Origin: Deltaproteobacteria bacterium
Lineage (GTDB): Bacteria; Desulfobacterota; Desulfobulbia; Desulfobulbales; Desulfurivibrionaceae
Direction of reading: 5' to 3'
DNA: 49,641 bases
NCBI GenBank assembly: GCA_021811385.1
Contig: JAJZPC010000010.1
Coordinates: 1-49,641, forward strand
The notes beneath the pieces were generated by a model. It was not told the origin of the DNA. It saw only the letters and a list, made by a program, of their open reading frames with translations, and did not search any database. Both the position numbers and the translations under genes were made by a program. This document shows, in pieces, positions 12,023-33,062 of this stretch; positions within the stretch are counted from its first letter, which is position 1, and each line of letters begins with the position of its first letter.

Positions 12023-12291
12023 GGGTTCGGTCCTGCGTCTCTGTTCGGGTGTGCTGGCTGGGAGCTGCTGCGACAGTGGTGAAAATACGCCAGGTTCATG
12101 CTAAGGCCAATGTATTTTTGCATTGTTTGCGCTAGAGTGGCAGGTCATGTTGTCGCAGTGAAAAATCACTTTGCAAGGTTGTGGGGAGCGTGCTAGTCTG
12201 GCCAAGCTTCCGTGGCGGAAGATATTTCTCCGCTTCCGGCGCACAGGGAACCCCTCTTCCGTCTCTTTGTCTTTCTTGGAAAAAAACCGCG

Positions 12292-13656
<1,365 letters not shown>

Positions 13657-15400: not shown

Positions 15401-15401
15401 A

Positions 15402-16285: not shown

Positions 16286-18874
16286 ATGGCCCTCCGTGAT
16301 TTCCTGAAAGGATTCTCCGCGCAACGCTGGTTCACGCCCAAGGCCTGCCGGCCTCTGCCCCTTGTTTTCTCCCAGTTTCGTGAGGTGCTCAAGGCTAACA
16401 ATCAGGCCCTCGAGATCATCGCCGACATGGGGGAAAAACTGAGCGGCGAGTATCTTTTCGATCTCCGTTATGTGGAATCCACGGTGGAGGAGATGATCGC
16501 GGCCATGCGCCGCGCCATTGCCGCAATCAATGTTCTGACCCAGGATCAGCACACGGCGCTCCAAGAGGTGTTTACTCCCATGGAGGCCAGGATCCGGGCG
16601 ATCCTCAACAAGCGGGATGACCGGGACGGCCCGCCCCTGCTCTGGCTTACGGAGATCGAGGACCGGCACTGGCCGCTGGTGGGCGGCAAGGCCGCGCATC
16701 TTTCCGAACTGCTCCACAACCCCCAGGTTCGGGTGCCGGAAGGATTCGTCATCACCGCCGGTCTGTTCCACGAAATCCTCGATTTGAACGGAATCAGACC
16801 GGAATTCGACCGGTTTGAGCAGCTGCTTTCCGAGCACCTTCCCGATGAAGAGGCGCTTGAGGCGTTGCGTTGTCTTCTCCAGGAAAAGGTGCTCCGCGCC
16901 GAGCCGCCCCCCGGATTTCTTGCTACGCTGGCCGAGGCCCTTCAGCAGCTTGCGGCCGACAGTCCGAGGGCTCTTTTTCTCGCGGTCCGCAGCAGCGCCC
17001 AGGAAGAGGACATGGATTTCTCCTTTGCCGGGCAGTTCCATTCCGAACTACAGGTTCCTCCCCAGGCGGAAGCGGTGTATCGCGCCTATCTCCAAGTGGC
17101 TGCCAGTCTGTTTGGCGCCAAGGCTATTGGTTACCGGCGCCAAGTTTTTCCGGAAGGCGGGACCATGTCCATTGCCGCCTGTTGCCAGCGGATGATTCCG
17201 GCCAAGGCCAGCGGCATCATCTATTCCATCGATCCCATGGACCCCGGTTCACAGAGCATGGTCGTGGTCGGCGCTTTGGGCCAGGGGCAGGCGGTGGTCG
17301 AGGGGCAGGTGCCCACGGATTTTTTCCGGCTCGGCAGGGGTGAGGCGCCGCAGGTCATTGAACGGGTTCTTGCCGCTAAACACGAAGCCCTGCTGCCGAC
17401 AGGCAACGCCGAAGGCGGGCTTGCCATGCAGGCGGTGCCGAACGGTCAGGCCGGGGCTCCTTGTCTGGACGAGCGGATTCTTTTCGAGCTTGCGGCAGTC
17501 GCCATCCATCTGGAAACGTTTTTCAAACGGCCCCAGGATATCGAATGGACCCTGGATCCGCAGGGCATTCTCTATATCCTGCAGTCCAGACCTCTGTTGA
17601 TTACGGAAAGCGAAAAAGGCAAGCCCCGGCTTTCCGAAAAACTCGAAGACTATGAGCTTATCGCCGCCGATGCGGGAAGGGTGGCCCAGCAGGGTATCGG
17701 CGCCGGGCCGGTCTTTTGGGTGGAAACCCTGGCCGATCTCAAGGAGTTCCCCGAGGGCGCGGTGCTGATCAGCCACCGTGACTCCTCCCAATACGTCCAG
17801 GTCATGCACCGGGCCGCGGCCATCGTCACCGAGGTGGGCAGCCCGACAAGCCACATGGCCACCCTCTGCCGCGAGCTGCGGGTTCCCTGTCTGGTGGGGG
17901 TTCCGGATATCTTGACCAAGGTGGTTCCCGGCGAGGAAATAACCGTGGATGCCGAGGACCGCCGGATTTACCGGGGCAGGGTGGTGGAACTTCTCACCTA
18001 TCAAGCGACCACCAGCATGGATCTGCACATGGCCCCGGAGTTTCGCATGCTGCGCCGTATTCTCCGGAACGTTTCCCGGTTGAATCTGGTTGACCCGCTG
18101 ATGCAGGATTTCAGGCCCGAAGGGTGCAAGACCTTCCACGACGTGCTGCGCTTCATCCACGAAACCGCGGTGCTCGAGCTGGTGGAGCTGGGGCGGGATG
18201 ACCGCTGCCTGCCCGGCGGCCTGGCAAGACGGCTGGAGCTGCCCATTCAGGCGGGGATTCTTGCCATCGACATCGGCGGCGGCATTGCCCCGGACGCCCC
18301 GCGCGATGCCATTCCATTTGCCGCCATCCGTTCGATCCCCTTCCGGGCCATCCTCCAGGGCATGCTCTTCCCCGGAGCCTGGCACCAGGAAACCATGCCG
18401 GTGAGCTTCAGGGACATGATGCACAGCATGATGACCACCCCGCAGGACACCCTTTCCGGGCAGTACACCGGCCACAACATCGCCATCATCAGCGAAACCT
18501 ATGTGAACCTCTGCTTCCGGTTCGGGTATCATTTCAACATCATCGACGCATTCTGCCACGACGTGGAGCGCGACAATCATATCTATTTCCGCTTTTTGGG
18601 CGGGGCCACGGACATTGCCAAGCGTTCGCGGCGGGCGACCCTCATCGCCACGATACTCGAGGCCTTTGATTTCAGCGTCAAAACCAGGGGGGATCTGGTC
18701 ATTGCCCGCACCGGCAATCTGGTCCAGAGTGAAATGGAGCGGACCCTGGATATCCTCGGCCGGTTGATCGGCTTTACCAGGCAGCTCGATGTGCAGATGA
18801 CGGACGACCAGGCTGTGGCCCGGTATGCCGAGGCGTTTCTCATGGGAGATTACGGCGTTGTTGCCGGAAAATAA
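16286..18874 (+). CDS. PEP-synthase-like dikinase paralogue P1 with novel C-terminal domain, 862 aa
   Basis: An N-terminal helical domain (about 25-115; NNQALEIIADMGEKLSGEYL) precedes a PEP-synthase/PPDK-type ATP-grasp domain (about 120-440). That domain carries Lys135 in VGGKAAHLSEL, Arg235 in LAVRSSAQEED, SFAGQFHSEL, SIDPMDP, and the closing DIEWTLD and LQSRP. The swivelling phosphohistidine domain (about 470-575) has His523 in GSPTSHMATLCREL. The C-terminal TIM barrel that binds PEP and pyruvate is absent. In its place are about 280 residues shared with three paralogues in this cluster (CKTFHDVLRFIHE from Cys614, RFGYHFNIIDA, NHIYFRFLGG, GFTRQLD). All residues needed to phosphorylate the histidine from ATP appear present; the final acceptor is unknown. 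The receiver gene follows after 20 nt. Confidence 0.88.
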   Translation: MALRDFLKGFSAQRWFTPKACRPLPLVFSQFREVLKANNQALEIIADMGEKLSGEYLFDLRYVESTVEEMIAAMRRAIAAINVLTQDQHTALQEVFTPMEARIRAILNKRDDRDGPPLLWLTEIEDRHWPLVGGKAAHLSELLHNPQVRVPEGFVITAGLFHEILDLNGIRPEFDRFEQLLSEHLPDEEALEALRCLLQEKVLRAEPPPGFLATLAEALQQLAADSPRALFLAVRSSAQEEDMDFSFAGQFHSELQVPPQAEAVYRAYLQVAASLFGAKAIGYRRQVFPEGGTMSIAACCQRMIPAKASGIIYSIDPMDPGSQSMVVVGALGQGQAVVEGQVPTDFFRLGRGEAPQVIERVLAAKHEALLPTGNAEGGLAMQAVPNGQAGAPCLDERILFELAAVAIHLETFFKRPQDIEWTLDPQGILYILQSRPLLITESEKGKPRLSEKLEDYELIAADAGRVAQQGIGAGPVFWVETLADLKEFPEGAVLISHRDSSQYVQVMHRAAAIVTEVGSPTSHMATLCRELRVPCLVGVPDILTKVVPGEEITVDAEDRRIYRGRVVELLTYQATTSMDLHMAPEFRMLRRILRNVSRLNLVDPLMQDFRPEGCKTFHDVLRFIHETAVLELVELGRDDRCLPGGLARRLELPIQAGILAIDIGGGIAPDAPRDAIPFAAIRSIPFRAILQGMLFPGAWHQETMPVSFRDMMHSMMTTPQDTLSGQYTGHNIAIISETYVNLCFRFGYHFNIIDAFCHDVERDNHIYFRFLGGATDIAKRSRRATLIATILEAFDFSVKTRGDLVIARTGNLVQSEMERTLDILGRLIGFTRQLDVQMTDDQAVARYAEAFLMGDYGVVAGK

Positions 18875-18894
18875 TAGGCAGGGAGGAAGAAACA

Positions 18895-19281
18895 ATGAGC
18901 GAGACAAACACGCGGCTTCTGGTGGTGGATGACGAACCCATTGTCGGCAAGCGGCTCAAGCAGGTGTTCGACAAAATAGGTTTCGCCATCGAAACCTATA
19001 CCGACTCGGCCGCGGCCCTTGCGGCCATGGCGGAAAAACCGTTTGACATCGTGGTGACCGATCTTAAGATGGAGGGGATTGACGGCATCGAGGTGCTCAA
19101 AAGGGTCCGGGCCATGAACCCCGATACCCGGGTGATCATCATCACCGGCTATGCCTCGCCGGACACGGCGGAACTCGCGGAACAGGAGGGGGTGTTCGCC
19201 TTTCTCGCCAAGCCGTTTAGGCTGGATGAATTGAAACAGGTCATTTACCGCGCCATCGAATCCGGCAGAGCCAAGGCATGA
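18895..19281 (+). CDS. Single-domain response regulator, 128 aa
   Basis: This is a stand-alone receiver with the acidic pair in VVDDEP, phospho-acceptor Asp56 in VVTDLKMEG, the conserved threonine in IITGYAS, and the Lys-Pro pair in FLAKPFRLDE. There is no output domain, so it probably acts through protein contacts, like CheY-type receivers. GGGAGGAAG precedes the start. The stop overlaps the start of the following histidine kinase (ATGA), which makes that kinase its presumed phosphodonor. It lies directly downstream of dikinase-like P1; a similar receiver precedes P4, which suggests that receivers and dikinase-like proteins work together. Confidence 0.93.
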   Translation: MSETNTRLLVVDDEPIVGKRLKQVFDKIGFAIETYTDSAAALAAMAEKPFDIVVTDLKMEGIDGIEVLKRVRAMNPDTRVIIITGYASPDTAELAEQEGVFAFLAKPFRLDELKQVIYRAIESGRAKA

Positions 19282-20777
19282 AACTCAATCTCCCCAAACC
19301 CCCGGCGACGCAGACGGCCAATCGGGCGGAAGCCTTGCCGCCCTGCCGGTTTCTCTTCCCCGGTGTCCGCTCCATCCGGGGAAAGCTTCTTTTCATGATC
19401 TCCATTGTCGCGGGCCTCGGCATCATCGCCACGGCCACCGCCACCTTTGCCCTGTGGCGCATGGAAGACAAGATCCGGATCATCGAATCGTTCTACGAGC
19501 TGAATCAGAAGGTGCTCGAGATCAGGCGTTTTGAAAAAAATTATTTCCTGTTCAACGACCGGAAGGATTTGCTGAACGCCCTGGACTATGTGGATCAGGT
19601 CAGGGCCGCCATGGTCGCGGGAAAGACGGTTCTCCTTGAAGATAAAAGCGAGCTGGAATCCTTATACGACAAGGATCTCGGCGAGTACGAAGCCATTTCC
19701 CGGCGGCTGCTCCAGGACGGATTGTCTCCCCAAAACAAGCAATCCCTGGAAAATGCCCTGCGCAAACACGGCCAGGACATCACCAAGTCCATTTTTGACG
19801 TGGATGCCAAGGCGCGGGTGCGGGTGGAACGCGAGGTCGCGGGCTACCAGAAAACCGCGGTGCTCATCCTCGCCCTGGCTGTCGGCCTGGGCTCCGTGCT
19901 GATCATCTATATGATGCGCTGGATCATGCGGCCCCTTTCCGCCATCCGCGAGGCATCGGCCAGGATCATGCAGGGAGAGATGAGCTCCATTCCGATGAAT
20001 AATGACGTTCGCTGTTCGGTGGAAGGAATCGAACTGGTCAACTCCCTGAACCTCATGCTTCAGGCCATAAATGTCAAGCAACACCAGCTGGTGCAGTCGG
20101 AAAAGCTCGCGGCCATCGGCAAGGTTACCGCCGGCATCGCCCACGAGATCAACAATCCCTTGAACAATATCTCGCTCACCGCCGAGGTGCTGCTGGAGGA
20201 TCTTCCCAATCTTGCCTGCAGCGAAAGGATGGACATGGTGCGCGATATCCTGGTCCAGTCGGACCGGGCCCGGGAGGTGGTGCACCATCTGCTGGAGTTC
20301 TCCCGCACCCGCAAATCCAATATCATGGCGCCGGTCGATCTGGTGGCGCTGATGGAAAGCTCCATCACCCTGGTGAAGAATCAGTTTCGTCTGGGCGGCA
20401 TCATCTACCGTTACGACCATCCCGATCAGCCGGTGCTGGTCAGCGGCAATTCCAACCATTTGCAGCAGGTGCTGGTCAATCTGATGTTGAACGCGGTCCA
20501 GGCCATGCAGCCCGATGGGTGTCTTGACCTTGTCGTGAACGGCCAGGGGAACGAGGCGCGGATCGTGGTCCGCGACACCGGGGGCGGCATCGCACCCGAG
20601 GCGTTGACCCACATCTTTGATCCGTTCTTCACCACCAAGAACGAGGGCACCGGTCTCGGCCTCTCCTTGAGCTACGCCATTGTCAAGGACCATGGCGGCG
20701 ACATCGAGGTGGCAAGCGAGCCCGGCAAGGGAACGACCTTCACCATCACCTTTCCCCGTTTGCTCAAGGACGCCTGA
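19278..20777 (+). CDS. Membrane sensor histidine kinase with HAMP, 499 aa
   Basis: A proline-rich cytoplasmic tail of about 37 residues leads to TM1 (LLFMISIVAGLGIIATATAT). A periplasmic helical sensor domain (about 60-188) contains the segment EIRRFEKNYFLFNDRKDL, then TM2 (TAVLILALAVGLGSVLIIYM). A HAMP linker (RPLSAIREASARIMQGEM) and the HisKA domain follow, with His289 in GIAHEINNPLNNISL. The HATPase domain closes the protein (DTGGGIAPEA, GTGLGLSLSYAI). The FEKNYFL region resembles helical four-bundle sensors of the HBM/chemoreceptor type. The second kinase of this cluster has the same signature (AEKNYFLYGD), so both may read related signals. It overlaps the receiver before it and is separated from P2 by one nucleotide. 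Confidence 0.93.
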   Translation: MKLNLPKPPATQTANRAEALPPCRFLFPGVRSIRGKLLFMISIVAGLGIIATATATFALWRMEDKIRIIESFYELNQKVLEIRRFEKNYFLFNDRKDLLNALDYVDQVRAAMVAGKTVLLEDKSELESLYDKDLGEYEAISRRLLQDGLSPQNKQSLENALRKHGQDITKSIFDVDAKARVRVEREVAGYQKTAVLILALAVGLGSVLIIYMMRWIMRPLSAIREASARIMQGEMSSIPMNNDVRCSVEGIELVNSLNLMLQAINVKQHQLVQSEKLAAIGKVTAGIAHEINNPLNNISLTAEVLLEDLPNLACSERMDMVRDILVQSDRAREVVHHLLEFSRTRKSNIMAPVDLVALMESSITLVKNQFRLGGIIYRYDHPDQPVLVSGNSNHLQQVLVNLMLNAVQAMQPDGCLDLVVNGQGNEARIVVRDTGGGIAPEALTHIFDPFFTTKNEGTGLGLSLSYAIVKDHGGDIEVASEPGKGTTFTITFPRLLKDA

Positions 20778-20778
20778 G

Positions 20779-23325
20779 ATGCATTTCCCCGCCAATCCCT
20801 TCTCCAACACGGCAAAGGAAGAACCGGCCTCGTTTGCCGTCTCCTTCCGGCTCTTCCGCCGTCTGCTTTTCCTGAACAACGCGGTGCTGGAAAAGATCGG
20901 CCGCATGGAAGGGGCCCTGGCCGGAGAATATGTCTTTGACCGGAGATTCCTGAGCGAGGCGGTGGCCGGGTTGAACGAGCTGGTGCGGGAGGTGGTCTCC
21001 TGTCTGGGCAGCCTGACCGGCAACCGCTATCTTCTCCTGTACGACCGCTACGAGGAGATTGCCGGGAAACTTTCCGCGCTGGCCCTGGATTATGCCGGTC
21101 CGTATGACCGCAATCTCACCCTGGCCTATGACCTGCTCAACAGCGATTTCGAGGAGTTGGTGGGGGCCAAGAACGCAACTTTAAGCGAGATCCGCAACCG
21201 GCTGCATCTTCGGACCCCGGATGGCTTTGCCATTACCGTTGCCGCGTACCGCGAATTCATGGAGGCAAACGATCTCTTTGCCCGGATCGACGCCATCCTC
21301 GCCGCACCGGGCAGCAGCCGCAAGCACGGCGAACGCATCGCGGGATCGCTGCGGCAGGCTCGCTTTCCGGAGCGGCTGGTGGCGGCGGTGCAAGAGGAGC
21401 TGCGCCAATTGCTCAATCGGGCAGGCGGCCCGGTACCCTTGGCGGTCCGCTCAAGCGGGGTGGGCGAGGATGCCGAAACCCGCAGCTTTGCCGGGCAGTT
21501 CCATTCGGTGCTCAAGGTAAGGCCCGAGTTGTCCTCGGTGCTCGACGCCTACCGGCAGGTGATCGCTTCCCGCTTTTCGGTCGCGGCCCTGGACTATCTT
21601 GGCTCAAAGGCCGACAGCCGGGACATCCCCATGGCTGCCGGGGTGCAACCGATGGTCCAATCCCGGGTCGCGGGGGTGACCTACAGCCGTGACCCGGAAG
21701 CGCCGGAAAAAAATCAGCTGCTCGTCACCTCCCTGCGCGGCGCTGCCCACGATCTGGTGTCCGGACGCAGACAAGCCGACCGTTTTATCATGAGCAGGGT
21801 CTGGCCGTTTGTTCCGCTGACCAGCGAGATCGTCATGCCGGATTCCTTTCCCGCCACCAGGGAAGCGCTCGACCTGCTGCCCAGCGGCCTGCGGCGCGGC
21901 TCGGCAACGGTAACGCCCAAGGAGCTGGCCAGGCTTGCCGAGCAGGCGTTGCTGCTGGAAAAGAGCTTTGGCGAACCCCAGGATATCGAATGGGCCTTGA
22001 CGGACGAACCGGTGATCTTGCAGAGCCGTCCCTTGTCCCTGCCCGCCAAACCGCCGCCGCTTCCAGGCGAGCTGGCCGCCGAGCTGGCCGCGGCCACTCC
22101 GCTCATGTCCGGGAAAGGGCAGGTCGCCCACCTTGGCATTGCCACGGGGAGGGTGGTGCATGTGGATCAGAACACCGACCCGGAGCAGTTTCCGGTGGGC
22201 GCCATCGCCGTGGCCCGTTTCCCCAGCCCGCAATTGAGCCCCATTGTCTGGCGGGCCGCCGCCATGATCACCGAGATCGGCGGCCCCACCGGGCATCTGG
22301 CCACCATTGCCCGGGAATATCGGACCCCGGCCCTGTTCGGAACCGGCGATGCCGTCAAGCTTCTCGCCGAGGGGGCGGAGGTCACGGTGGATGTGGAAAA
22401 CAAGCAGGTGTATCAAGGGATCATCGAAGGGCTGGTCCGGTTGCACGGCGCGGAAGAGGATGAGTACCGCGCCTCCCAGGAGTTGCGGATTCTGCGCCGC
22501 ATCCTGCGCTGGGTGGCGCCCATCACCCTCGCCGATCCGACCTCCGCCGGGTTCAAGGCGGAAAATTGCCATACCTTCCACGACATCCTCCGTTTTGCCC
22601 ACGAAAAGGCCATTGACGCGCTGATCCATTTCCACGCGGACACAAGCGGCTCCCAGGAGGAGCTGAGCCGGCCGGTGCAGCTGCCGATCCCGCTTAAATT
22701 GCGGGTCATCGACTTGGGCTCGGGACTCAAGCCCGAAGCGCCGCCAAGGGGAGCAATCAGCATGGCGATGCTGAACAGCAGGCCGCTGAACGCCATTCTC
22801 CAGGGCTTTCTCAAGGATGACCAAGGGGGCAAGGAGGCCGCACCGCTGGGATTCAGGGATATCCTCTCCGGGATCAGCAAGCCGTTGGCCCTGCTCACCG
22901 GGCCCGCCTATCCGGGCGACAATTTGGGGATCATTGCCGATCATTACTGCAACCTCTGCCTGCGTCTCGGGTATCACCTCAACGTGGTGGACGCCTACAT
23001 GTCGCCGGACCCGGACAACAACTACATCTACTTCCGTTTTGCCGGAGGGATGGCCGAGAAGGCCAAGCGTGAGTGGCGGGCCCGCTTGATCGGCGCCATT
23101 CTCTCAGGCCTCTATTTCAAGGTGGAACGCACCGGTGATCTGGTGATCGCCAAGGCCAGGAACCTCGATATCCCGAGGATGGAACGGGTGCTGGGCCGGT
23201 TGGGCGAGCTGATCTCCTTCACCCGCCAGCTTGACGTGCGGATGCGCGACGAGACAGCCATCGAGCAGTTCTTCCAGCGTTTCCTGGCAAGTGTCAGGCA
23301 GGATCAGACCGGGGAGGATGGGTAG
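20779..23325 (+). CDS. PEP-synthase-like dikinase paralogue P2, 848 aa
   Basis: The layout equals that of P1: helical N-terminal domain (LLFLNNAVLEKIGRMEGALA), ATP-grasp domain with Lys131 in VGAKNATLSEI and LAVRSSGVGED/SFAGQFHSVL, closing DIEWALT and LQSRP, then the phosphohistidine domain with His506 in GGPTGHLATIAREY. The C-terminal shared domain follows (CHTFHDILRFAHEKA, RLGYHLNVVDAYMSP, NYIYFRFAGG, SFTRQLD). The usual glycine-rich GLG motif after the DP motif is degenerate here (LRGAAHDLVSGRR), so nucleotide handling may differ from P1. I start at ATG MHFPANPF, one nucleotide after the kinase stop; the open frame upstream is an antiparallel-frame artefact. The stop is immediately followed by the GTG of P3. 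Confidence 0.87.
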   Translation: MHFPANPFSNTAKEEPASFAVSFRLFRRLLFLNNAVLEKIGRMEGALAGEYVFDRRFLSEAVAGLNELVREVVSCLGSLTGNRYLLLYDRYEEIAGKLSALALDYAGPYDRNLTLAYDLLNSDFEELVGAKNATLSEIRNRLHLRTPDGFAITVAAYREFMEANDLFARIDAILAAPGSSRKHGERIAGSLRQARFPERLVAAVQEELRQLLNRAGGPVPLAVRSSGVGEDAETRSFAGQFHSVLKVRPELSSVLDAYRQVIASRFSVAALDYLGSKADSRDIPMAAGVQPMVQSRVAGVTYSRDPEAPEKNQLLVTSLRGAAHDLVSGRRQADRFIMSRVWPFVPLTSEIVMPDSFPATREALDLLPSGLRRGSATVTPKELARLAEQALLLEKSFGEPQDIEWALTDEPVILQSRPLSLPAKPPPLPGELAAELAAATPLMSGKGQVAHLGIATGRVVHVDQNTDPEQFPVGAIAVARFPSPQLSPIVWRAAAMITEIGGPTGHLATIAREYRTPALFGTGDAVKLLAEGAEVTVDVENKQVYQGIIEGLVRLHGAEEDEYRASQELRILRRILRWVAPITLADPTSAGFKAENCHTFHDILRFAHEKAIDALIHFHADTSGSQEELSRPVQLPIPLKLRVIDLGSGLKPEAPPRGAISMAMLNSRPLNAILQGFLKDDQGGKEAAPLGFRDILSGISKPLALLTGPAYPGDNLGIIADHYCNLCLRLGYHLNVVDAYMSPDPDNNYIYFRFAGGMAEKAKREWRARLIGAILSGLYFKVERTGDLVIAKARNLDIPRMERVLGRLGELISFTRQLDVRMRDETAIEQFFQRFLASVRQDQTGEDG

Positions 23326-25926: not shown

Positions 25927-25938
25927 CGAGACAAGGAT

Positions 25939-27462
25939 ATGAAGGCAGGATTTGAAAAATTTCAAGCGCTGTCCGCGTTTGCCGAGCAGTATGGCTGTCC
26001 GTGGGTGGAATACCATGAATCAGTGACCGGCCCGCCGTTTTTGCTCTGGAAGCTCAACATGCCCCAACTCCGGGCGGAAGGCTGGTTCCCTCGGCTGGTT
26101 GGTGATGGCAAGGCTGTCGTGATCGCCACCGCGCCCGGCCCCGAGTTGGCGGACACGATCCGCGAAACCCTCGGCGTGGGGGAGGTGGCGTTTGAGGTCA
26201 CCCTGCCCGAGGATCTCAAACGCATCTTCGACCACAACCAGGATCTCAACCCCGGCTTTCCGGCCACCGCTGGCCGCACCCCGCTGGCCAAGGTCCGCAC
26301 CTATCTGGCGGGGCGGCGTTCGCTGTTCGCCCATTACCGGACCCTGCTGGCCAAGAGCCGCACCGGTTTGGCCTTTATCCGCACCGGCCTTTCCTGCATC
26401 ACCATTGCCCTGCTTTTTCTCCGCCTGCTCGGCAGCGGGTATTACCTGCTGCTGGAGGCGCCTCTCCTGATAGGCGGCATCATCATGGTGTATGACGGCC
26501 TCAAATGGTATCTGCCTGCCAGGGAGATCTACGCCACCCTGCCGCCCTGTGTCGATACCGGCGCCACCTCCGGAACCAGCGTGTTGGAGGTGGAAAACGA
26601 GTACGTCGCCCCGGAATTCCGGCGCAGCGGAGTGGTGGCAGGGGCTGCCGCGTTGCGGGGTGGCTGGACCAGCATGTCGCCGGTGATGCGGCGGCGCTTT
26701 CTGGCCGGCGACCGAACCGACCTGGCCGAGGAAAGAACGGTGCTCGCCTGTTTTAGAACCAGGATGGCCAAGGCCCGCACCGGCCTGGCCTTTACCCGCA
26801 CCGGCTTTGCTTTTATCAGCCTCGGTCTCGGGTTGTTGCGCCAGTTTCAGGCCAGTCGCTGGCTCGCCTTCGACCTCGGGCTCATCGGCATCGGCGGTCT
26901 CATGGCCCTGGAGGGATTTTTCTGGTATTTCCGCGGCCGGAGGGCAGGGGTGGAAGGGCTGGCCTCGGTGCGGGAAAAAACGAGGATGTCCTCCATCTGG
27001 GATTATTTTTTCCCCCACGGCCATGTCCTGCCCGGACCGGACACCAATCCCATGACCCTGCCGGTGAAGAGCTCCCATGCCCCGGGGATCTGGGCCACCA
27101 CCGGCGTTGCCCTGGAGCGCACGGTGCTGGCCGAGCGGCGTAATGTCATGGCCCGGCTGCGCACGGTCATGGCCCGGGCCCGCACCGGTTTCGCCTTTAT
27201 CCGCACCGGGTTGAGCCTTTTTCTGATCGGGGCGGCTTTTCTGCTTTTCTTCGATGATACCGGCGCCCTTGGCTGGACCGTGTTCAGCTACGCGATGATG
27301 GCGGCAGGGCTCTTGCTGGTTGCGGACGGTTTTGCCTGGAGCATCCCGGCCGAGCGGACGCGCCGGCAGCTGCCTTACTGCTACGGCGATATGGAAATCA
27401 CTATCCCCGATTACGGCGTGCCGGCCAGATTTTGGAAAACCGTGGTGTTCAGCAATGACTGA
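25939..27462 (+). CDS. MshEN-like plus three-module DUF202 membrane protein, 507 aa
   Basis: The first 95 or so residues resemble the MshEN/GspE N-terminal domain, which in some proteins binds cyclic di-GMP (FAEQYGCPWVEY, GWFPRLVGDGKAVVIATAP, FEVTLPEDLKRIFD). Three DUF202-type modules follow, near 112-195, 247-345 and 385-490. Each is an arginine-rich amphipathic run (RTDLAEERTVLACFRTRMAK-like), the signature ARTGLAFIRTGLS, and two to three hydrophobic helices ending W-Y/F. DUF202 is best known from small bacterial membrane proteins and from the fungal VTC polyphosphate complex; no enzymatic role is established. The stop overlaps the next gene by 8 nt (ATGACTGA). The function is unknown; its place inside the dikinase-kinase cluster suggests it is the membrane client or sensor. 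Confidence 0.8.
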   Translation: MKAGFEKFQALSAFAEQYGCPWVEYHESVTGPPFLLWKLNMPQLRAEGWFPRLVGDGKAVVIATAPGPELADTIRETLGVGEVAFEVTLPEDLKRIFDHNQDLNPGFPATAGRTPLAKVRTYLAGRRSLFAHYRTLLAKSRTGLAFIRTGLSCITIALLFLRLLGSGYYLLLEAPLLIGGIIMVYDGLKWYLPAREIYATLPPCVDTGATSGTSVLEVENEYVAPEFRRSGVVAGAAALRGGWTSMSPVMRRRFLAGDRTDLAEERTVLACFRTRMAKARTGLAFTRTGFAFISLGLGLLRQFQASRWLAFDLGLIGIGGLMALEGFFWYFRGRRAGVEGLASVREKTRMSSIWDYFFPHGHVLPGPDTNPMTLPVKSSHAPGIWATTGVALERTVLAERRNVMARLRTVMARARTGFAFIRTGLSLFLIGAAFLLFFDDTGALGWTVFSYAMMAAGLLLVADGFAWSIPAERTRRQLPYCYGDMEITIPDYGVPARFWKTVVFSND

Positions 27463-28678
27463 GAATGAGACGGATGTCTTGATGCGGCCTTTTGCCGGCC
27501 TCGCCTTTTCCCGGGCCGGGATGCTTGCGGAAGCGGCCAGGGGCGCCGCATTGCGGGGGGTGCCCCTGGCGCGGATTCTCCATCTCGAATACGGGGTGGA
27601 GCGCGAGGCGCTGCTTGCAACCCTGCGCGACCATTATCAATGCGCCTCCATCGAGTACGACGAACGGCTGCCCATTCCGCCTGAGCTGCTCACCGTGCTC
27701 AACGGTCCGCCGGGCAGCCGGCTCGCGCAAAGCGGCTGGTTTCCGGTGATCAAGGACGCCGACGGCACCATGGTCATCGCCGCCTGCGATCCGTCGGATG
27801 CAGCCATGCTCGCGGAGGTGGAGGAGATTTTCGGCCCGGCCCCGTATGAATTCCGGGTGGCCCTGCCCGACGACATCGCCTGGTTTATCCAGGATTTCCT
27901 CCATGACAAGCCGGGTCTGCTCATCGGCACCGAACGCACCGGCCTGGCCTTCTGGCGGAATATCATGGCCCAGTGGCGGACCCGGCTTGCCTGCTACCGC
28001 ACCGATCTGGCCCGGGCCCGCACCGCCTTGGCCTTTATTCGCACAGGTCTGGCCCTGGCCGCCATCTCCCGGACCCTCTTGAACAACCAACGGTTCGGCG
28101 TCCATCCTTTTCCGGCCTATGGGGTTTTGGCGGTGGGACTGCTGCTTTTTTCCGGCGCCCTGCCCACCTATCTTCGGGTGCGGCGTTCCCGCATGACGCC
28201 GCCGAGGCATCAGACCCTGGTGGAGGTGAGCTCCGCCACCTTGAGTTTTCTTGAGAACTATCAGAACCTGGAGCATGCGGGCATGGAAAAGAAAACCAAG
28301 GAGACCATGCTGGCCCGGCTTGGCGATCTGCTCGGCAACTACTGCACCATTTTGTACCCGTCGCCCGCCAGCCGGGAACGCACCCACCTGGCCCGGGAAC
28401 GGAACGTGCTCGCCGCCCAGCGCACCATCGCCGGCTGTTACCGGACCATCTATTCGCGGGCCCGCACCGGTCTGGCCTTTATCCGTACCGGAGTCTCCTT
28501 TGTGAGCATCGGCATCGGCCTGATCGGCTATTTCGGCCTGGGGTTCAAGACCTTTTTTGATGTGATGCTGATCGTGGTCGGTCTGTTGATGATCATCGAC
28601 GGAGGGCTCTGGTACCTGCCGGTGCGCAAGGAACAGGCGGAGCTGCCCGGAACACGAAGCGGCGTATTGGCGGGGTGA
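27455..28678 (+). CDS. MshEN-like plus two-module DUF202 membrane protein, 407 aa
   Basis: This is a companion of the preceding gene. Residues 1-150 form a fuller MshEN-like domain: LAEAARGAALRGVPLARILH, YQCASIEYDERLPIPPELL, GWFPVIKDADGTMVIAACDP, and VALPDDIAWFIQDFL. Two DUF202-type modules follow, near 155-240 (RARTALAFIRTGLALAAISR) and 300-395 (ARTGLAFIRTGVSFVSIGIG). Between them is a soluble helical linker of about 60 residues (SATLSFLENYQNLEHAG). The start I use overlaps the upstream stop, typical of translational coupling. Together with its neighbour it brings five DUF202 modules into the operon, which looks like stepwise duplication. The next gene, a histidine kinase, starts 6 nt after the stop. 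Confidence 0.8.
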   Translation: MTENETDVLMRPFAGLAFSRAGMLAEAARGAALRGVPLARILHLEYGVEREALLATLRDHYQCASIEYDERLPIPPELLTVLNGPPGSRLAQSGWFPVIKDADGTMVIAACDPSDAAMLAEVEEIFGPAPYEFRVALPDDIAWFIQDFLHDKPGLLIGTERTGLAFWRNIMAQWRTRLACYRTDLARARTALAFIRTGLALAAISRTLLNNQRFGVHPFPAYGVLAVGLLLFSGALPTYLRVRRSRMTPPRHQTLVEVSSATLSFLENYQNLEHAGMEKKTKETMLARLGDLLGNYCTILYPSPASRERTHLARERNVLAAQRTIAGCYRTIYSRARTGLAFIRTGVSFVSIGIGLIGYFGLGFKTFFDVMLIVVGLLMIIDGGLWYLPVRKEQAELPGTRSGVLAG

Positions 28679-28684
28679 TGCGGC

Positions 28685-30106
28685 ATGAAAATCGAACATA
28701 AAATCTATCTTTCCAACGCGGTCCATATCCTCCTTATCGTGCTGATCGGCATGTTTGCCCTGCAGAACCTCAATGAGATATTGACCAAGTTCCGCTTCAC
28801 CGTGATCGCCGAGGGGCTCAACGCCAATTTCCTTGAGATGCGGCTGGCGGAAAAAAATTATTTCCTCTACGGCGATAACGAGGCGTTCAACAATATCAAG
28901 ACCAGAATCGACCAGACCGGCGAGACCCTGCTGCAGGTTCGCCCTGATATCATCCGGGCCGTGGGGGCGGAGAAGTACACGACGCTTCAGAATCATCTCC
29001 ACGCCTATGCGCAAGTGGTTGATTCGATCAGCAAGTCCAGCCATCGTGACGGCGCGGTTCAGCAGAAGTTGCGGGAGGCGGGCCAGAACCTCAAAACATT
29101 TTCCGAGAATATCACCGCCCTTGAAAGCGACCGGATCGGCGCGATCATTGCCGGTTCCAAGAATATCCTGCTCTATTCCTTCTGGGCCGTGGTGCTTTTC
29201 GCCTTTCTCTTCAGCAATCTCATCGTCCGGAATATCGGCCAGTCGTTGCGCAAGGTTGTCGATCTCACCCGGGCCATATCCACGGGCAATTACCGGAAGA
29301 TCGAGGAAAAACCCTCCGACGACGAGATCGGCGCGGTGGTCAGCGCCATCAACGCCATGGCCGAGGAGCTGCATAAACGGGAAAAGGAGATCGTCCAATC
29401 GAAAAGGCTCGCCTCCATCGGCGTGCTGGTGGCAGGGGTGGCCCACGAGCTCAACAATCCGCTCAACAATATCTCCATGCTCGCCCAGACCTATGCGGAG
29501 GTCTACGACGGGCTCGGCAAGGAGGACAGGATCGGTTTCATGGAGCGGGTGGACGAGGAGGTCGAACGGCTGCGGGTGATCATCCACAACCTGCTTGATT
29601 ACGCAAAACCCAAGGAGCAGCATCTGGCCAGGGCGATCACCAATCAGGTCATCCAGAAGATCCTGGCCCTGGTGCAGAACATGCTCGATATCTCCAACAT
29701 CAAGGTCATGCTCACCCTGGGCGAGAACCTCCCGGATATCTACATCGACGAACACCAGATCCAGCAGGTGCTGGTCAATATGGCCACCAACGCCATCCAG
29801 GCCATGGGCAAGGGCGGCGAACTGCGCATTGTCTCCCGCTATCTGCCGGACCATGACGAAATCGAGATCGAGATCGGCGACAACGGCAAGGGCATTGCCC
29901 CGGAGTTTCTCGATCACATCTTTGATCCATTTTTCACCACCAAGGAAGAAAGCGGCACCGGTCTTGGCCTGTGGGTCAGCTACGGGATCATCAAAAACCA
30001 CCAGGGGAACATCCGGGTGGCAAGCCAGGTCGGAGTCGGCACAACATTTATCATAACCCTGCCCAGTTGCAAAAAGTTAAAGAGGTGTACGGATGGCGAA
30101 GCATAG
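28685..30106 (+). CDS. Membrane sensor histidine kinase with HAMP, 473 aa
   Basis: TM1 is at the extreme N-terminus (VHILLIVLIGMFALQNL). A periplasmic helical sensor follows (about 35-165; EMRLAEKNYFLYGDNEAF), then TM2 (ILLYSFWAVVLFAFLFSNLI) and HAMP (QSLRKVVDLTRAISTGNY). HisKA has His254 in GVAHELNNPLNNISML, and the HATPase domain has DNGKGIAPEF and GTGLGLWVSYGI. The sensor shares the EKNYFL signature with the kinase at 19278, so the two kinases are paralogues with related inputs. The C-terminus overlaps the following receiver by 14 nt, identifying the cognate pair. Here the order is HK then RR, the mirror of the first pair. Confidence 0.93.
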   Translation: MKIEHKIYLSNAVHILLIVLIGMFALQNLNEILTKFRFTVIAEGLNANFLEMRLAEKNYFLYGDNEAFNNIKTRIDQTGETLLQVRPDIIRAVGAEKYTTLQNHLHAYAQVVDSISKSSHRDGAVQQKLREAGQNLKTFSENITALESDRIGAIIAGSKNILLYSFWAVVLFAFLFSNLIVRNIGQSLRKVVDLTRAISTGNYRKIEEKPSDDEIGAVVSAINAMAEELHKREKEIVQSKRLASIGVLVAGVAHELNNPLNNISMLAQTYAEVYDGLGKEDRIGFMERVDEEVERLRVIIHNLLDYAKPKEQHLARAITNQVIQKILALVQNMLDISNIKVMLTLGENLPDIYIDEHQIQQVLVNMATNAIQAMGKGGELRIVSRYLPDHDEIEIEIGDNGKGIAPEFLDHIFDPFFTTKEESGTGLGLWVSYGIIKNHQGNIRVASQVGVGTTFIITLPSCKKLKRCTDGEA

Positions 30107-30461
30107 CATTATGGTCATTGATGATGAGAAGATCGTGGGGGACATGGCAAAACTTTCCTTCGAGCAGGACGGCTACGAGGTGGAAACCTTCCTCAACGGC
30201 GAGTCGGCCCTGGAACGATTGAAGGAAAAGCGGTTCGACGTGGTGGTCACCGACCTGAAGATGAAGGGGGTGGACGGCCTTGAGGTGCTGCGCTCCATCA
30301 AGAAGCTTTACCCCGGCGTCAAGGTGATCATGATCACCGCCTTCGCCAATCTGGATGTGGCCATCGAGGCGTTGCGGGACGATGTCCACGATTTCTTCCC
30401 CAAGCCGGTCAAGATCAAGGAGCTGAAAGCCTCGGTCAAAAGAGCCCTGGGGGAGGAATGA
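30093..30461 (+). CDS. Single-domain response regulator, 122 aa
   Basis: A stand-alone receiver with VIDDEK acidic pocket, phospho-acceptor Asp54 in VVTDLKMKG, the threonine in MITAFAN and the Lys-Pro pair in FFPKPVKIKE. It is clearly related to the receiver at 18895 (VVTDLKMxGxDGxEVL in both) and likewise has no output domain. Its start lies inside the end of the histidine kinase gene, implying coupled translation. Dikinase-like P4 begins 36 nt downstream. The repeated association of a receiver with a dikinase-like gene suggests that it regulates that protein or passes phosphate to it. Confidence 0.93.
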   Translation: MAKHSIMVIDDEKIVGDMAKLSFEQDGYEVETFLNGESALERLKEKRFDVVVTDLKMKGVDGLEVLRSIKKLYPGVKVIMITAFANLDVAIEALRDDVHDFFPKPVKIKELKASVKRALGEE

Positions 30462-30497
30462 TCCCGGCCGGATGATATCCCGACGGAACCGCTGGCC

Positions 30498-33062
30498 ATG
30501 CAAAAAACTTTTTTCCGCGGACTCAAAGAGGTGTTCGGCCGCGACCGTGGCGCAGCCACCGGCCTGACCACGCGTTTCCAGGCCTTTCAGGCGGTGCTCG
30601 ACGGCAACAACCGCACCCTGGAAGCCATGACCGAGATGGGGGAAAAGCTCGGCGGCGGCTACCTCTTTGATGTCAATTACACCCGTGGCGCCTATGCCGC
30701 GCTGTTCTCGGCAATCTCCGGTTCGCTCGACCAGTTCAACCTGCTGACCGATGACCGCTATCCCCGGCTGGCTGAAATCCTGGCCCGCATCGACACCTTG
30801 GTGCAGCGGATGTTGAGCGGGAGCGCATCCCTTTCCAGCCCCTTGGTGGTCTCTTATCCGGAGATCACCTGGGACCAGGCCGAGGAGGTGGGGGGCAAGA
30901 ATTATCACCTGGCCGAGCTGGCGAACGCCCTGCATCTCCCTATTCCCGAGGCCTTTGCCATCACCACCACCGCCTTTACCGTTTTTCTGCACCATAACGG
31001 ATTGGAGGCGCGCCTTGCCGGGTTGGCCGGGGCCGACGGCGACGCCCTGGCCGAGGTGCGTAGCGCCATTCTTGCCGGTGGTTTCCCGGAGGATCTCAGC
31101 GCGGAGTTGGCCGCGGCCCTGGAGAGCATGCGGGCCCGGCTTGGCCAAAACGCAACCCTGGCGGTGCGGAGCAGCGCCGAGGAGGAGGACGGCGATTTTT
31201 CCTTTGCCGGTCAATTCGAGACGGTGCTCAATGTGCCCTGCACGGTCGAGGCCGTGCAGGAGGCCTATAAGGAGGTGGTGGCCAGCCTTTTTCAGGCCGA
31301 CTCCGTAAGCTACCAACGCCAGCTCGGCTATGATCTCGGGAAGCTGAAGATGGCGGTGGGCTGCGTGGCCATGGTCGAGGCGAGAGCGAGCGGGGTCATG
31401 TATACCGTCGCCTCCGGCAGGGAGCGGGACAGGATGTCGATCAGCGCGGCCTGGGGATTGGGCAAGGCGGTGGTGGACGGCATGACCGATGCCGATCTCT
31501 ACACCGTGGCCAAGGGGGAGACGCCCCGGCTTTTTTCCCGCCGTATCGGCGCCAAGGAACAGATGGTGGTTAATCTGGGAGTCTCCGGCATCGCGACGGT
31601 GGAAACCCCGGCGGCACAACGGCCGTTGCCCTGCCTCGGCGAAACCGAGGTCATCGAGCTGGCAAGGCAGGGTCAGATCATCGAGGCGTATTTCAAGGCG
31701 CCCCAGGACATCGAATGGGCCATTGATACGAACAATCGATGCTATCTGCTCCAGGCCAGGGCCTTGCGGGTGGAAGAGCCCGACGAGACGGGATCAAACG
31801 CTCAAGCGCAGGCAACAGGCTATCCGGTGTTGCTCCGCGACCAGGGGATAGTGGTGCAGCGGGGCACCATCGCAGGCAAGGTTTTCATCCTGCACCATCT
31901 CGACGAACTGGAGAAGATCCCCAAGGGCAGCATCCTGGTGGCCAGGCACGACTCCCCCCACTTTGTGCAGGCCATTCCCATCCTCAATGCCATCATCACC
32001 GATATCGGCGTGCCCACCAGCCATATGGCCTCGATCTGCCGGGAATTCAGCATCCCCACCGTGGTCAATACCGGTTCCGCCACCTCGGTTTTGCGCCATG
32101 GCCAGGCGATCACCCTGCAGGCGGGCGAGGGCGGCGAGGTTGTGGTGTATGAGGGAATCGTCCAGGGTTTGCTCCGGGAGGAGCGGCAAACCGCAGCCAA
32201 ACTGCGGGAGCTGTATGAGTTCCGGCGCCAGAAATACATCATGCGCTATATTGCCCCGCTCAACCTGGTCAACTCCCTGGAGCAGGAATTCACCCCGGAA
32301 AAATGCAAGACCGTGCATGATCTTGTCCGCTTCATGCACGAGAAAGCGGTGCAGGCCCTGGTTGCCAATGCCGAAGGGCAGGGCAGGGGGTTCAACAGGT
32401 TTTTCGGCGGCAAGAGTGCCGTGCACCGGTTGTCTCTGCCGATCCCGGTCCAAATGCTGGTGATCGATCTGGGGGGCGGCTTGCGCGGCAACCCGGGCGG
32501 TAAGATAACCGGCTTCGAAGCGGTGGCCTCCGTGCCGTTGCGGGCGGTGCTTGCCGGGATGCTTGCCCCAGGGGTCTGGCAAAACGAGGGGGTGGCCCTG
32601 CGCGGGGCCGATCTGCTCTCCGGCATGACGCGGGCGGCGGATGTTCCCGGCGGCGCGGCTATTATGGAGAACGTGGCCCTGGCAAGTTCGGAGTACGTGA
32701 ACATGAGCCTGCGCTTCGGCTACCACTTTAATATGCTGGACTGCTATTGCAGCGACACCCCGCGCAACAACCACATCTATTTCCGTTTTGTGGGCGGGGC
32801 CGCCGCCATTACCAACCGTTCCCGCCGCATCCAGCTCATGGCCCAGGTGCTGGCGGAGCAAGGGTTTGCCCTCAAGGCCAAGGGCGATCTGCTGATCGGC
32901 CGTCTCTCCGGCCTGGGACGGCAGGAGATTGAGGGGATTCTCAAGCAGCTGGGGTGCCTGATCGGTTTTACCCGGCAGCTTGACGCCCGTCTTGATTCCG
33001 ACGAGAAGGTGACGGTCCTGGCCCGTCGCTTTTTACAGGGGGATTACCGGAGCAGCCTTTGA
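30498..33062 (+). CDS. PEP-synthase-like dikinase paralogue P4, 854 aa
   Basis: It is closest in motif content to P1: a helical N-terminal domain (NNRTLEAMTEMGEKLGGGYL), then ATP-grasp with Lys134 in VGGKNYHLAEL, LAVRSSAEEED, SFAGQFETVL and AWGLGKAVVDG. Two usual motifs are altered: DP reads AS (YTVASGRER), and the closing QSRP reads QARA. The phosphohistidine domain keeps His509 in GVPTSHMASICREF. The C-terminal shared domain is well conserved (CKTVHDLVRFMHEKA, RFGYHFNMLDCYCSD, NHIYFRFVGG, GFTRQLD). No TIM barrel is present. It is the last gene of the cluster; a phosphatase gene converges on it with a 12-nt gap and no obvious terminator. Confidence 0.87.
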   Translation: MQKTFFRGLKEVFGRDRGAATGLTTRFQAFQAVLDGNNRTLEAMTEMGEKLGGGYLFDVNYTRGAYAALFSAISGSLDQFNLLTDDRYPRLAEILARIDTLVQRMLSGSASLSSPLVVSYPEITWDQAEEVGGKNYHLAELANALHLPIPEAFAITTTAFTVFLHHNGLEARLAGLAGADGDALAEVRSAILAGGFPEDLSAELAAALESMRARLGQNATLAVRSSAEEEDGDFSFAGQFETVLNVPCTVEAVQEAYKEVVASLFQADSVSYQRQLGYDLGKLKMAVGCVAMVEARASGVMYTVASGRERDRMSISAAWGLGKAVVDGMTDADLYTVAKGETPRLFSRRIGAKEQMVVNLGVSGIATVETPAAQRPLPCLGETEVIELARQGQIIEAYFKAPQDIEWAIDTNNRCYLLQARALRVEEPDETGSNAQAQATGYPVLLRDQGIVVQRGTIAGKVFILHHLDELEKIPKGSILVARHDSPHFVQAIPILNAIITDIGVPTSHMASICREFSIPTVVNTGSATSVLRHGQAITLQAGEGGEVVVYEGIVQGLLREERQTAAKLRELYEFRRQKYIMRYIAPLNLVNSLEQEFTPEKCKTVHDLVRFMHEKAVQALVANAEGQGRGFNRFFGGKSAVHRLSLPIPVQMLVIDLGGGLRGNPGGKITGFEAVASVPLRAVLAGMLAPGVWQNEGVALRGADLLSGMTRAADVPGGAAIMENVALASSEYVNMSLRFGYHFNMLDCYCSDTPRNNHIYFRFVGGAAAITNRSRRIQLMAQVLAEQGFALKAKGDLLIGRLSGLGRQEIEGILKQLGCLIGFTRQLDARLDSDEKVTVLARRFLQGDYRSSL

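Follow-up and report, generated by a model that had tools for sequence, protein, structure and literature searches.

PEP synthase (pyruvate, water dikinase) combines an ATP-grasp domain and a swivelling phosphohistidine domain with a PEP/pyruvate barrel. Rifampin phosphotransferase and HpeI follow the dikinase logic with a non-pyruvate acceptor, and the rifampin enzyme carries its acceptor domain between the ATP-grasp and His domains. The phosphohistidine swivel domain is also found in PTS enzyme I. At the level of gene clusters, the Desulfovibrio "nitrate cluster" (DVU0251-DVU0245 / Dde_0597-0605) contains a TauE permease, a histidine kinase, a lone receiver, a PPDK-like protein and a phosphatase, and its mutants resist nitrate, showing that the cluster confers nitrate sensitivity (PMC4001038). 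Single insertions in DVU0251 (TauE), DVU0250, DVU0247 (receiver) and DVU0246 (PPDK-like) grew indistinguishably with and without 100 mM nitrate, and in the available part of that report these mutants showed no nitrite resistance (PMC4001038). Pooled and single-mutant data disagree for DVU0250, and the two strains did not agree in the behaviour of the phosphatase mutant (PMC4001038).

We compared these systems with the window, a 49,641-nt stretch of DNA from a Deltaproteobacteria bacterium of the Desulfobacterota. The genes of interest, including four PEP-synthase-like proteins (P1-P4) with a shared C-terminal domain (CT), were as follows:

12181..13656, + strand: sigma-54 response regulator, NtrC-type (Pfam Sigma54_activat, Response_reg, HTH_8), upstream of the unit
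13901..14458, + strand: Usp-like small protein (PF00582 E 0.016, weak and below cut-off)
14471..15400, + strand: TauE/SafE (TSUP) anion permease (PF01925 E 4e-48)
15384..16190, + strand: TIGR02186/Alph_Pro_TM protein (PF09608 E 3e-50; TIGR02186 6e-25, below its cut-off)
16286..18874, + strand: P1 (H523 at 17852-17854; CT 18005-18871)
18895..19281, + strand: lone receiver RR1 (Response_reg 4e-28)
19278..20777, + strand: membrane histidine kinase HK1 (HisKA, HATPase_c)
20779..23325, + strand: P2 (H506 at 22294-22296; CT 22450-23322)
23326..25926, + strand: P3 (H513 at 24862-24864; CT 25009-25896)
25939..27462, + strand: membrane protein DUF202a (three DUF202 stretches matched, PF02656 6e-13)
27455..28678, + strand: membrane protein DUF202b (MshEN-like PF05157 8.5e-9; two DUF202 stretches, PF02656 1.3e-8)
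28685..30106, + strand: membrane histidine kinase HK2 (HisKA, HATPase_c, HAMP)
30093..30461, + strand: lone receiver RR2 (Response_reg 1e-29)
30498..33062, + strand: P4 (H509 at 32022-32024; CT 32178-33056)
33075..33731, - strand: calcineurin-like phosphoesterase, PPP-type (PF00149 9e-17), convergent

The earlier note on this DNA had described the ten genes from P1 to P4, and we recovered all ten with the same strand and coordinates, tightly packed with overlaps of 4, 8 and 14 nt and otherwise gaps of 0-36 nt. P2 and DUF202b probably start at ATG 20779 and ATG 27455, respectively. Pfam agreed with its two histidine kinases, two lone receivers and two DUF202 proteins. The HisKA, HATPase_c and receiver domains were matched nearly full length, with AHEINNP/AHELNNP and TDLKM motifs, and the kinases carry the phospho-acceptor His and the receivers the Asp. 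However, the boundaries of the cluster had been drawn too short, as the Usp-like, TauE and TIGR02186 genes lie directly upstream. The ten genes are a segment of a longer conserved unit, which starts upstream with TauE and TIGR02186 and ends here with the convergent phosphoesterase. The nearest NCBIfam models to this phosphoesterase were those of ApaH-type and of protein Ser/Thr phosphatases, none of which reached its cut-off.

In Pfam, all four P proteins matched PPDK_N, at E 1e-57 to 5e-77, and PEP-utilizers, at 1e-12 to 1e-19. The layout is a three-helix N-terminal domain, the ATP-grasp domain (PPDK_N), the swivelling phosphohistidine domain and CT. The ATP-grasp lysines (K135/K131/K137/K134), the VRSS and SFAGQ motifs and the swivelling-domain histidines (H523/H506/H513/H509) were intact, exactly as previously numbered. 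There was no Pfam match past about residue 575, and the PF02896 barrel, whose absence the earlier note had also reported, gave no match at E<=0.1. PEP synthase (PDB 2ols, 8a8e) shares the two catalytic modules, with 28% identity to 2ols over 467 columns (Foldseek) and sequence matches spanning P1 residues 118-571 at most, but differs in its barrel; the P proteins have instead an extra helical N-terminus and an unrelated CT domain. The ATP-grasp domain was also like that of rifampin phosphotransferase (PDB 5hv1, 5fbs) and HpeI (PDB 9goj), with fold matches of TMt 0.87 to 5hv6 and 0.66 to 9goj (Foldseek). However, the order in the P proteins is ATP-grasp, His, CT, which differs from that of rifampin phosphotransferase. 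PTS enzyme I gave a weak fold match to the swivel domain (1zym, E 3e-3), but it lacks the ATP-grasp domain of the P proteins, for which the phosphoryl donor is likely ATP rather than PEP, and the PEP-binding barrel that is its phosphate source had no match in P1-P4.

CT comprises the C-terminal ~290 residues of P1-P4, for which neither Pfam and NCBIfam nor the PDB sequences gave a significant match. The only NCBIfam match to a piece of CT was DUF896 in P4 (E 0.037), and the CT sequence profile gave 0 matches to the PDB at E<=1. For the AlphaFold model of the P4 CT (pLDDT 85), 0 of 788 Foldseek matches reached E<=0.001, the best being DR_1245 at E 0.027, and the predicted helices and strands follow an order other than that of a barrel. 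A barrel or known fold in CT was ruled out by the Pfam, NCBIfam, PDB profile and Foldseek searches together. The weak fold matches to CT were type III chaperone-like and ferredoxin-like. Across 72 sequences, 20 CT positions were invariant, including C48, H52, D53, H59, D102, H188, D193, N203, R208, R222, D242, R271 and D274. No account of the CT family turned up in the open-access literature searched. From its sequence, the architecture of P1-P4, PEP-synthase modules joined to a previously unnamed CT family, appears to be new.

In a tree of P1-P4 relatives, P2 formed a single supported clade; for the labels P1, P3 and P4, the tree required 3, 2 and 3 changes, respectively. This ruled out recent tandem duplication as the origin of P1-P4, which are old paralogue classes. 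The earlier note had asked for a check of gene order in relatives, and the order was conserved, with P3 after P2 in 28/28 loci. The TIGR02186 gene lay upstream of P1 in 36/36 loci, TauE preceded P1 in 34/34 testable loci and a receiver gene followed P1 in 34/36, and a receiver lay upstream of P4 in 18/21. Since other genomes carry the four paralogue classes in this same order, chance is excluded. The phosphoesterase was less constant: it was convergent after P4 in 11/23 loci, directly after P3 in 10/30, and missing from many. A defence system was rejected, with no PADLOC match in the nine proteins scanned.

Across CT subfamilies, a TSUP gene was found within 6 kb of CT in 44 of 58 loci (about 0.03 expected; background 117 TSUP matches over 15 genomes totalling 55.6 Mb), on the same strand in 31 of these 44. 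The other 14 loci had no TSUP gene within 6 kb, some of them at contig or stretch ends. The linkage held over several CT subfamilies and accessory sets, and several subfamilies had no adjacent lone receiver. The multi-subunit or branched phosphotransfer machine that the earlier note had suggested is partly supported, as a conserved, multi-paralogue, barrel-less and receiver-tied phosphotransfer system, but was incomplete, as its most constant partner, the TSUP permease, had been omitted.

Relatives whose genes run TauE-hyp-PhnD-HK-RR-P-phosphatase carry CT and correspond in order to DVU0251-0245, the Desulfovibrio nitrate cluster. Among 20 relative regions chosen for a nearby PhnD, the order PhnD-HK-RR-P was present in 18; TauE lay ahead in 12, including one region that was given a gene-by-gene scan, and was not seen in the fetched stretch of the other 8. 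The window likewise links TauE, a histidine kinase, a lone receiver and a CT-bearing dikinase. However, the nitrate cluster has a PhnD-type binding protein and a ~200 aa protein where the window has TIGR02186, a DSP phosphatase where the window has the PPP-type phosphoesterase, and one PPDK-like gene without DUF202 where the window has four P genes and DUF202. A phosphatase-type gene is present in the window and in the nitrate-type relatives, from different families. DVU0246 would belong to the CT-dikinase family on the gene order and protein lengths of its relatives. The previous view that no described system has this composition is only partly correct: this relative, with the same gene logic, has published mutant phenotypes, although its PPDK-like protein is not treated as a family in the available text of PMC4001038.

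CT was co-distributed with APS reductase. In the phylum of the window, aprA was present in 98/107 genomes with CT compared with 18/190 without, and in a second group in 51/55 compared with 35/143, in a sample drawn outside the Gram-positives and Archaeoglobus and with an association confounded by shared ancestry. CT was present in 171/199 sampled genomes of the order holding a Desulfonauticus record, and arrangements like that of the window were found in many sulfate-reducing bacteria.

The reading that we tentatively prefer, at a probability of about 0.47, is that P1-P4 are two-component-controlled ATP dikinases that serve a TSUP sulfur-oxyanion permease in sulfur-respiring bacteria, CT being their phosphoryl-acceptor or catalytic module. 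The sensor kinase would phosphorylate the lone receiver, which would control the neighbouring P protein. The P protein would use ATP to charge its own histidine, and its swivelling domain would then pass the phosphate to or through CT, where the invariant Cys, His, Asp, Asn and Arg residues may form the acceptor site. As a result, sulfur oxyanion uptake via the TSUP permease would be switched on or driven, and the phosphatase gene, where present, would reset the system. An insertion of the DVU0246 type should not silence TauE, since the PPDK-like gene comes after it. Against this reading, DVU0248, the kinase gene of the D. vulgaris cluster, is given as a pseudogene, yet the receiver and PPDK-like mutants still show the phenotype (PMC4001038); the kinase role there would have to fall to a different protein or to none. 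Sulfur-anion uptake by sulfate reducers is poorly understood, and one survey, in its accessible part, considered function predictions for their TSUP permeases not feasible (PMC5840216). The analysis links an unnamed domain family both to these permeases and to a nitrate-sensitivity phenotype already on record, and offers a testable model for the nitrate inhibition of sulfate reducers, with relevance to oil-field souring control. It also puts forward CT as a candidate new acceptor domain for swivelling dikinases.

It is somewhat unlikely that the role is instead metabolic, with CT binding the anion that is imported, or a metabolite derived from it, and P phosphorylating (activating) that acceptor, as rifampin phosphotransferase does with the drug; nitrate toxicity would then come from its use as a dead-end or futile substrate, at the expense of ATP. 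The catalytic modules are common to P, rifampin phosphotransferase and PEP synthase, the invariant CT residues are enzyme-like, and permease and P mutants would likewise share one nitrate phenotype (PMC4001038). In all four shortened P relatives without a histidine-domain match, which are probably inactive, H59, D102, H188 and R271 were replaced, which suggests that these residues may act in phosphotransfer. However, a TauE gene still lies ~0.8 kb from three of the four, and the region of the fourth also contains one, so the pairing of P with TauE seems not to need catalysis. No receiver gene was seen in the fetched stretches of these four, in line with the preferred reading, in which the receiver would act on catalysis. 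Also against a metabolic role, lone receivers adjoin nearly every P1 and most P4 genes, which points to signalling, and four such enzymes in a single operon would call for as many substrates or roles.

A more novel reading is an ATP-powered analogue of group translocation, in which a receiver-gated phosphohistidine relay (P and CT) would couple ATP hydrolysis to TSUP sulfur-oxyanion uptake, with parallel P paralogues each having its own permease or accessory module, in most sulfate-respiring Desulfobacterota and some Nitrospirota. We consider this rather unlikely.

Ordinary co-regulation, in which the P proteins would be PEP-synthase-derived carbon or energy enzymes beside an unrelated permease, is unlikely. 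PPDK_N and PEP-utilizers are PEP synthase domains, and the best NCBIfam matches of P1-P4 were PEP synthase models, but these covered only the first ~60% of the models, scored 229-315 bits compared with the 598-bit equivalog cut-off, and left no barrel match, and the TSUP linkage persists across subfamilies and accessory sets. P1-P4 also failed the rifampin phosphotransferase cut-off (NF041857), with 152-211 compared with 999 bits.

That P4 and the two DUF202 proteins would make and translocate a phosphorylated product or polyphosphate in a VTC-like manner is very unlikely: DUF202 is the annotated domain of diatom Vtc1-3 (PMC7283521), VTC helices form a basic polyphosphate channel (PMC9911596), the DUF202 copies of the window are rich in RTxLA-type repeats and DUF202b lay upstream of P4 in 16/19 loci, but no VTC (TTM) polymerase domain was found among the ten cluster proteins at E<=0.1, DUF202a, the one searched, had no PDB sequence match at E<=1, and DUF202a followed P3 in only 12/30 loci and was not there in 18. 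The DUF202-HK2-RR2-P4 half is a separable module, given this 12/30 count and its occurrence without P1-P3 in the fetched stretch of four loci (three titled Nitrospirae and one Bacterium BMS3Bbin09).

Among the papers listed in the literature searches, PMC4001038 was the only one found to treat the relative cluster. In the available parts of other reports, DVU0251 was named once, among biofilm mRNA/protein mismatches (PMC3431258), a term search of a large D. vulgaris mutant study returned nothing on the nitrate cluster (PMC10102598), and "nitrate clustering" was used in another sense (PMC4092371). By eye, the TIGR02186 protein has a signal peptide, a periplasmic domain and a C-terminal TM. Many of the 72 loci had genes similar to the NtrC-type regulator close to P1. 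The Usp-like gene was upstream of P1 in 17/31 loci at >=80 bits and 26/31 at >=30 bits, and its positional counterpart in one relative showed a Usp match of 8e-7.

The earlier note had described ten tightly packed genes, and its gene list, strand and short overlaps or gaps (4-14 nt or 0-36 nt, respectively) were borne out. Its limits held for the ten genes but not for the whole unit, since conserved neighbours extend both ends: genes for NtrC, a Usp-like protein, a TauE/SafE permease (TauE) and a TIGR02186/PF09608 protein upstream, and a convergent PPP-type phosphoesterase gene downstream.

16286-33062, plus strand: ten genes, P1, RR1, HK1, P2, P3, two DUF202 proteins (DUF202a, DUF202b), HK2, RR2 and P4 (P, PEP-synthase-like paralogue; RR, lone receiver; HK, membrane histidine kinase)
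14471-15400: TauE permease, of the TSUP family
8638-11315, before the NtrC gene: PAS histidine kinase with N-terminal receiver, and receiver-domain protein

In several near relatives, too, the last gene pair lay upstream of the unit. The best NCBIfam match of the permease was the C-terminal part of the magnetosome protein MamO, at 36 bits against a cut-off of 800.

Pfam matched PPDK_N and PEP-utilizers in each of P1-P4, and P2-P4 were 30-38% identical to P1. The ATP-grasp lysines and phosphohistidines had been numbered correctly to the residue, and the PEP/pyruvate barrel had rightly been called absent, as no barrel model matched (Pfam, E≤0.1). Beyond about residue 575, no Pfam model matched P1-P4 at E≤0.1. 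The Pfam and structure check proposed earlier identified the catalytic half and left the C-terminal domain (CT), which spans about the last 290 residues, without a Pfam model or significant PDB fold match. NCBIfam gave nothing significant for CT (best, a short unrelated model, E 0.037), and a profile of 72 of 73 non-redundant rows, excluding that from contig 84 of the same genome, matched no PDB sequence at E≤1. Across these 72 sequences 20 positions were invariant. The AlphaFold2 model of CT (pLDDT 84.7, pTM 0.78) gave 788 Foldseek matches in the PDB, none reaching E≤0.001. The model of full-length P1 (pLDDT 84.6) opens with three N-terminal helices, followed by the ATP-grasp and His domains, and two linker helices lead into CT. 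Its 28 Foldseek matches at E≤0.001 were PEP synthase, rifampin phosphotransferase, HpeI, PPDK and swivel-domain proteins; by sequence, no match to a solved structure ran past residue 571.

Relatives were sought in 84,980 species genomes by one pattern-based scan, which gave 107 stretches, 100 of them confirmed; the best 80 gave 72 loci. Gene order, which the earlier note had wanted checked, was conserved: counting nine doubly hit contigs once each and only loci with room, P1 was preceded by TIGR02186 (36/36) and TauE (34/34) genes and followed by a receiver gene (34/36), so that TauE-TIGR02186-P1-RR1 was nearly constant. P3 followed P2 in 28 of 28 loci, and an HK1- or NtrC-like gene preceded P2 in 23 of 28. 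Before P4 lay a receiver gene (18/21) and DUF202b (16/19), while DUF202a followed P3 in 12 of 30. The phosphoesterase gene came directly after P3 in 10 of 30 loci and after P4 in 11 of 23; a Usp-like gene lay upstream of P1 in 17 of 31 at 80 bits and 26 of 31 at 30 bits. Four fetched stretches, three titled Nitrospirae (L033, L034, L036) and one Bacterium BMS3Bbin09 (L035), carried DUF202-HK2-RR2-P4 without P1-P3; in L036 and on the contig of L034 this module followed TauE and TIGR02186 genes and, by eye, two Usp-looking frames. From these counts and four loci, the unit divides into a constant core (TauE-TIGR02186-P1-RR1), a common extension (P2-P3) and a separable module (DUF202-HK2-RR2-P4).

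Permease linkage was measured in 60 stretches hand-picked from the listed matches, mostly high-scoring, 58 of which held a CT gene. By a profile from seven TSUP proteins of CT-linked and related loci, a TSUP gene lay within 6 kb in 44 of the 58, on the same strand in 31 and the opposite strand in 13. There were 117 TSUP matches in 55.6 Mb (15 genomes), and therefore about 0.03 expected per CT locus; as some loci share a genome, a binomial test is only indicative. Of the 14 loci without a TSUP gene within 6 kb, several lay at the end of a stretch or contig (L157, L217, L231, L232). Another CT subfamily adjoins an 850-1050 aa protein (L151, L161, L196, L198, L211, L216, L220, L225, L226, L227, L229), with a TSUP gene close by on the opposite strand and, in several, a DUF4881-type protein. 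The one neighbour scanned (L161) had a sigma-54 activator domain and lacked a receiver.

CT was present in 107 of 297 sampled genomes of the window's phylum, 171 of 199 in the order of a Desulfonauticus record, which we take to be Desulfovibrionales, and 55 of 198 in the phylum of a locus titled Nitrospirae. APS reductase (aprA; TIGR02061 above its cut-off) was found in 98 of 107 CT genomes against 18 of 190 without CT in the window's phylum, where four further CT genomes, the window's own included, held aprA fragments, and in 51 of 55 against 35 of 143 in the Nitrospirae-titled phylum; tests of such associations, Fisher tests on the family counts included, are inflated by shared ancestry, and sampling was by phylum and order, with no set of its own for Gram-positive or archaeal sulfate reducers. 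By a hand count of family codes (at least 95 families), all 37 CT families had an aprA genome and seven other aprA families lacked CT.

For the P system, domains, motifs, linkage and co-distribution were read from sequence. In known families where an ATP-grasp domain of this type works with a swivelling His domain, the histidine is charged from ATP with release of AMP. From the adjacency of their genes, the lone receiver would act on the neighbouring P; phosphate may then move to or through CT, and the target may be the permease or its cargo, putatively a sulfur oxyanion. That P phosphorylates the cargo is the main rival reading, at well under even odds. We tentatively favour control or energisation of the permease by the P system, at slightly under even odds (about 0.47). 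The catalytic half of P1-P4 is of a known kind. CT, the domain order and the permease-receiver setting were absent from the family libraries searched and papers found.

Short, low-scoring CT proteins of 566-603 aa occurred in 5 of 30 genomes, and three were read in sequence. They kept CT and, by eye, a family-like N-terminal region, with a residual ATP-grasp only (PPDK_N 20-27 bits, short of the 27 bits of the cut-off), and PEP-utilizers did not match them at E≤1; TauE lay about 0.8 kb from each gene. A fourth shortened P (649 aa, L254/L268) matched PPDK_N at residues 128-293 (57.7 bits) and did not match PEP-utilizers. All four are likely pseudoenzymes.

L265:5550-7247, shortened dikinase relative with CT, beside TauE
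L266:5098-6897, the same, beside TauE
L267:4735-6534, the same, beside TauE
L268:3178-5124, shortened dikinase relative with CT
L265:4808-5464, L267:4110-4760 and L248:11405-12010, membrane proteins of about 200-220 aa between TauE and P, alike by eye

In all four, CT residues H59, D102, H188 and R271 were changed, and D274 was changed or had no aligned residue. C48, H52 and D53 were kept in the three short proteins, and C48 and H52 changed in the 649-aa P, which kept D193 and N203, both changed in the three (D193 to E). None of the four stretches showed a receiver gene. Though numbers are small, the changed invariants, missing receiver and nearby TauE fit CT residues that work in phosphotransfer, receivers that act on the catalytic form of P, and a permease link that outlasts loss of catalysis. 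A membrane protein of about 218 aa fills the TauE-P gap in the two stretches checked, L265 and L267; these two and their L248 look-alike perhaps recall DUF106/EMC3-type insertases.

Within the Desulfonauticus order, PF12974 (PhnD) genes in 30 genomes often lay about 5 kb from CT genes. In 20 regions fetched for that proximity, 18 had PhnD-HK-RR-P on one strand and 18 had a gene like the L248 phosphatase next after P; L250 stops at a contig end, L254 lacks the receiver and has a shortened P, and 12 of 20 stretches included TauE. L248 encodes TauE, a 202-aa protein without a Pfam match, PhnD, HK, a 119-aa receiver, a PPDK_N/PEP-utilizers protein carrying CT by profile, and a DSP phosphatase. Gene order, and nearly protein lengths, agree with those of the Desulfovibrio nitrate cluster DVU0251-DVU0245 in PMC4001038. 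There, insertions in DVU0246, 0247, 0250 and 0251 grew indistinguishably with and without 100 mM nitrate and no better on nitrite, and a DVU0245 mutant was inhibited. Support for DVU0249 came from pooled data only, DVU0248 was listed as a pseudogene, and pooled data for DVU0245 and DVU0250 differed between two strains; its authors proposed non-specific nitrate entry via a leaky thiosulfate transporter. The present comparison adds a placement: the PPDK-like protein and lone receiver of that cluster very probably belong to a CT family that is widespread and goes with TSUP permeases.

A 102-row tree, built by a quick method with SH-aLRT support only and labelled by best hit or gene context, placed P2 in a single clade (support 100) and the nitrate-type P proteins in another. 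Labels changed three, two and three times for P1, P3 and P4, against 15-19 for shuffled labels. Judging from this tree, P1-P4 are old paralogues. On contig 84 of the same genome, a fifth CT-bearing dikinase (L143:2292-4985, 898 aa), diverged from P1-P4, is preceded by genes for a TauE permease of 477 aa and a 232-aa protein whose ends are hydrophobic. Contig 16 encodes a 1422-aa protein (L144:1704-5969) with no Pfam match at E≤0.01 ahead of residue 922 and with PPDK_N and PEP-utilizers confined to its C-terminal half (residues 922-1404).
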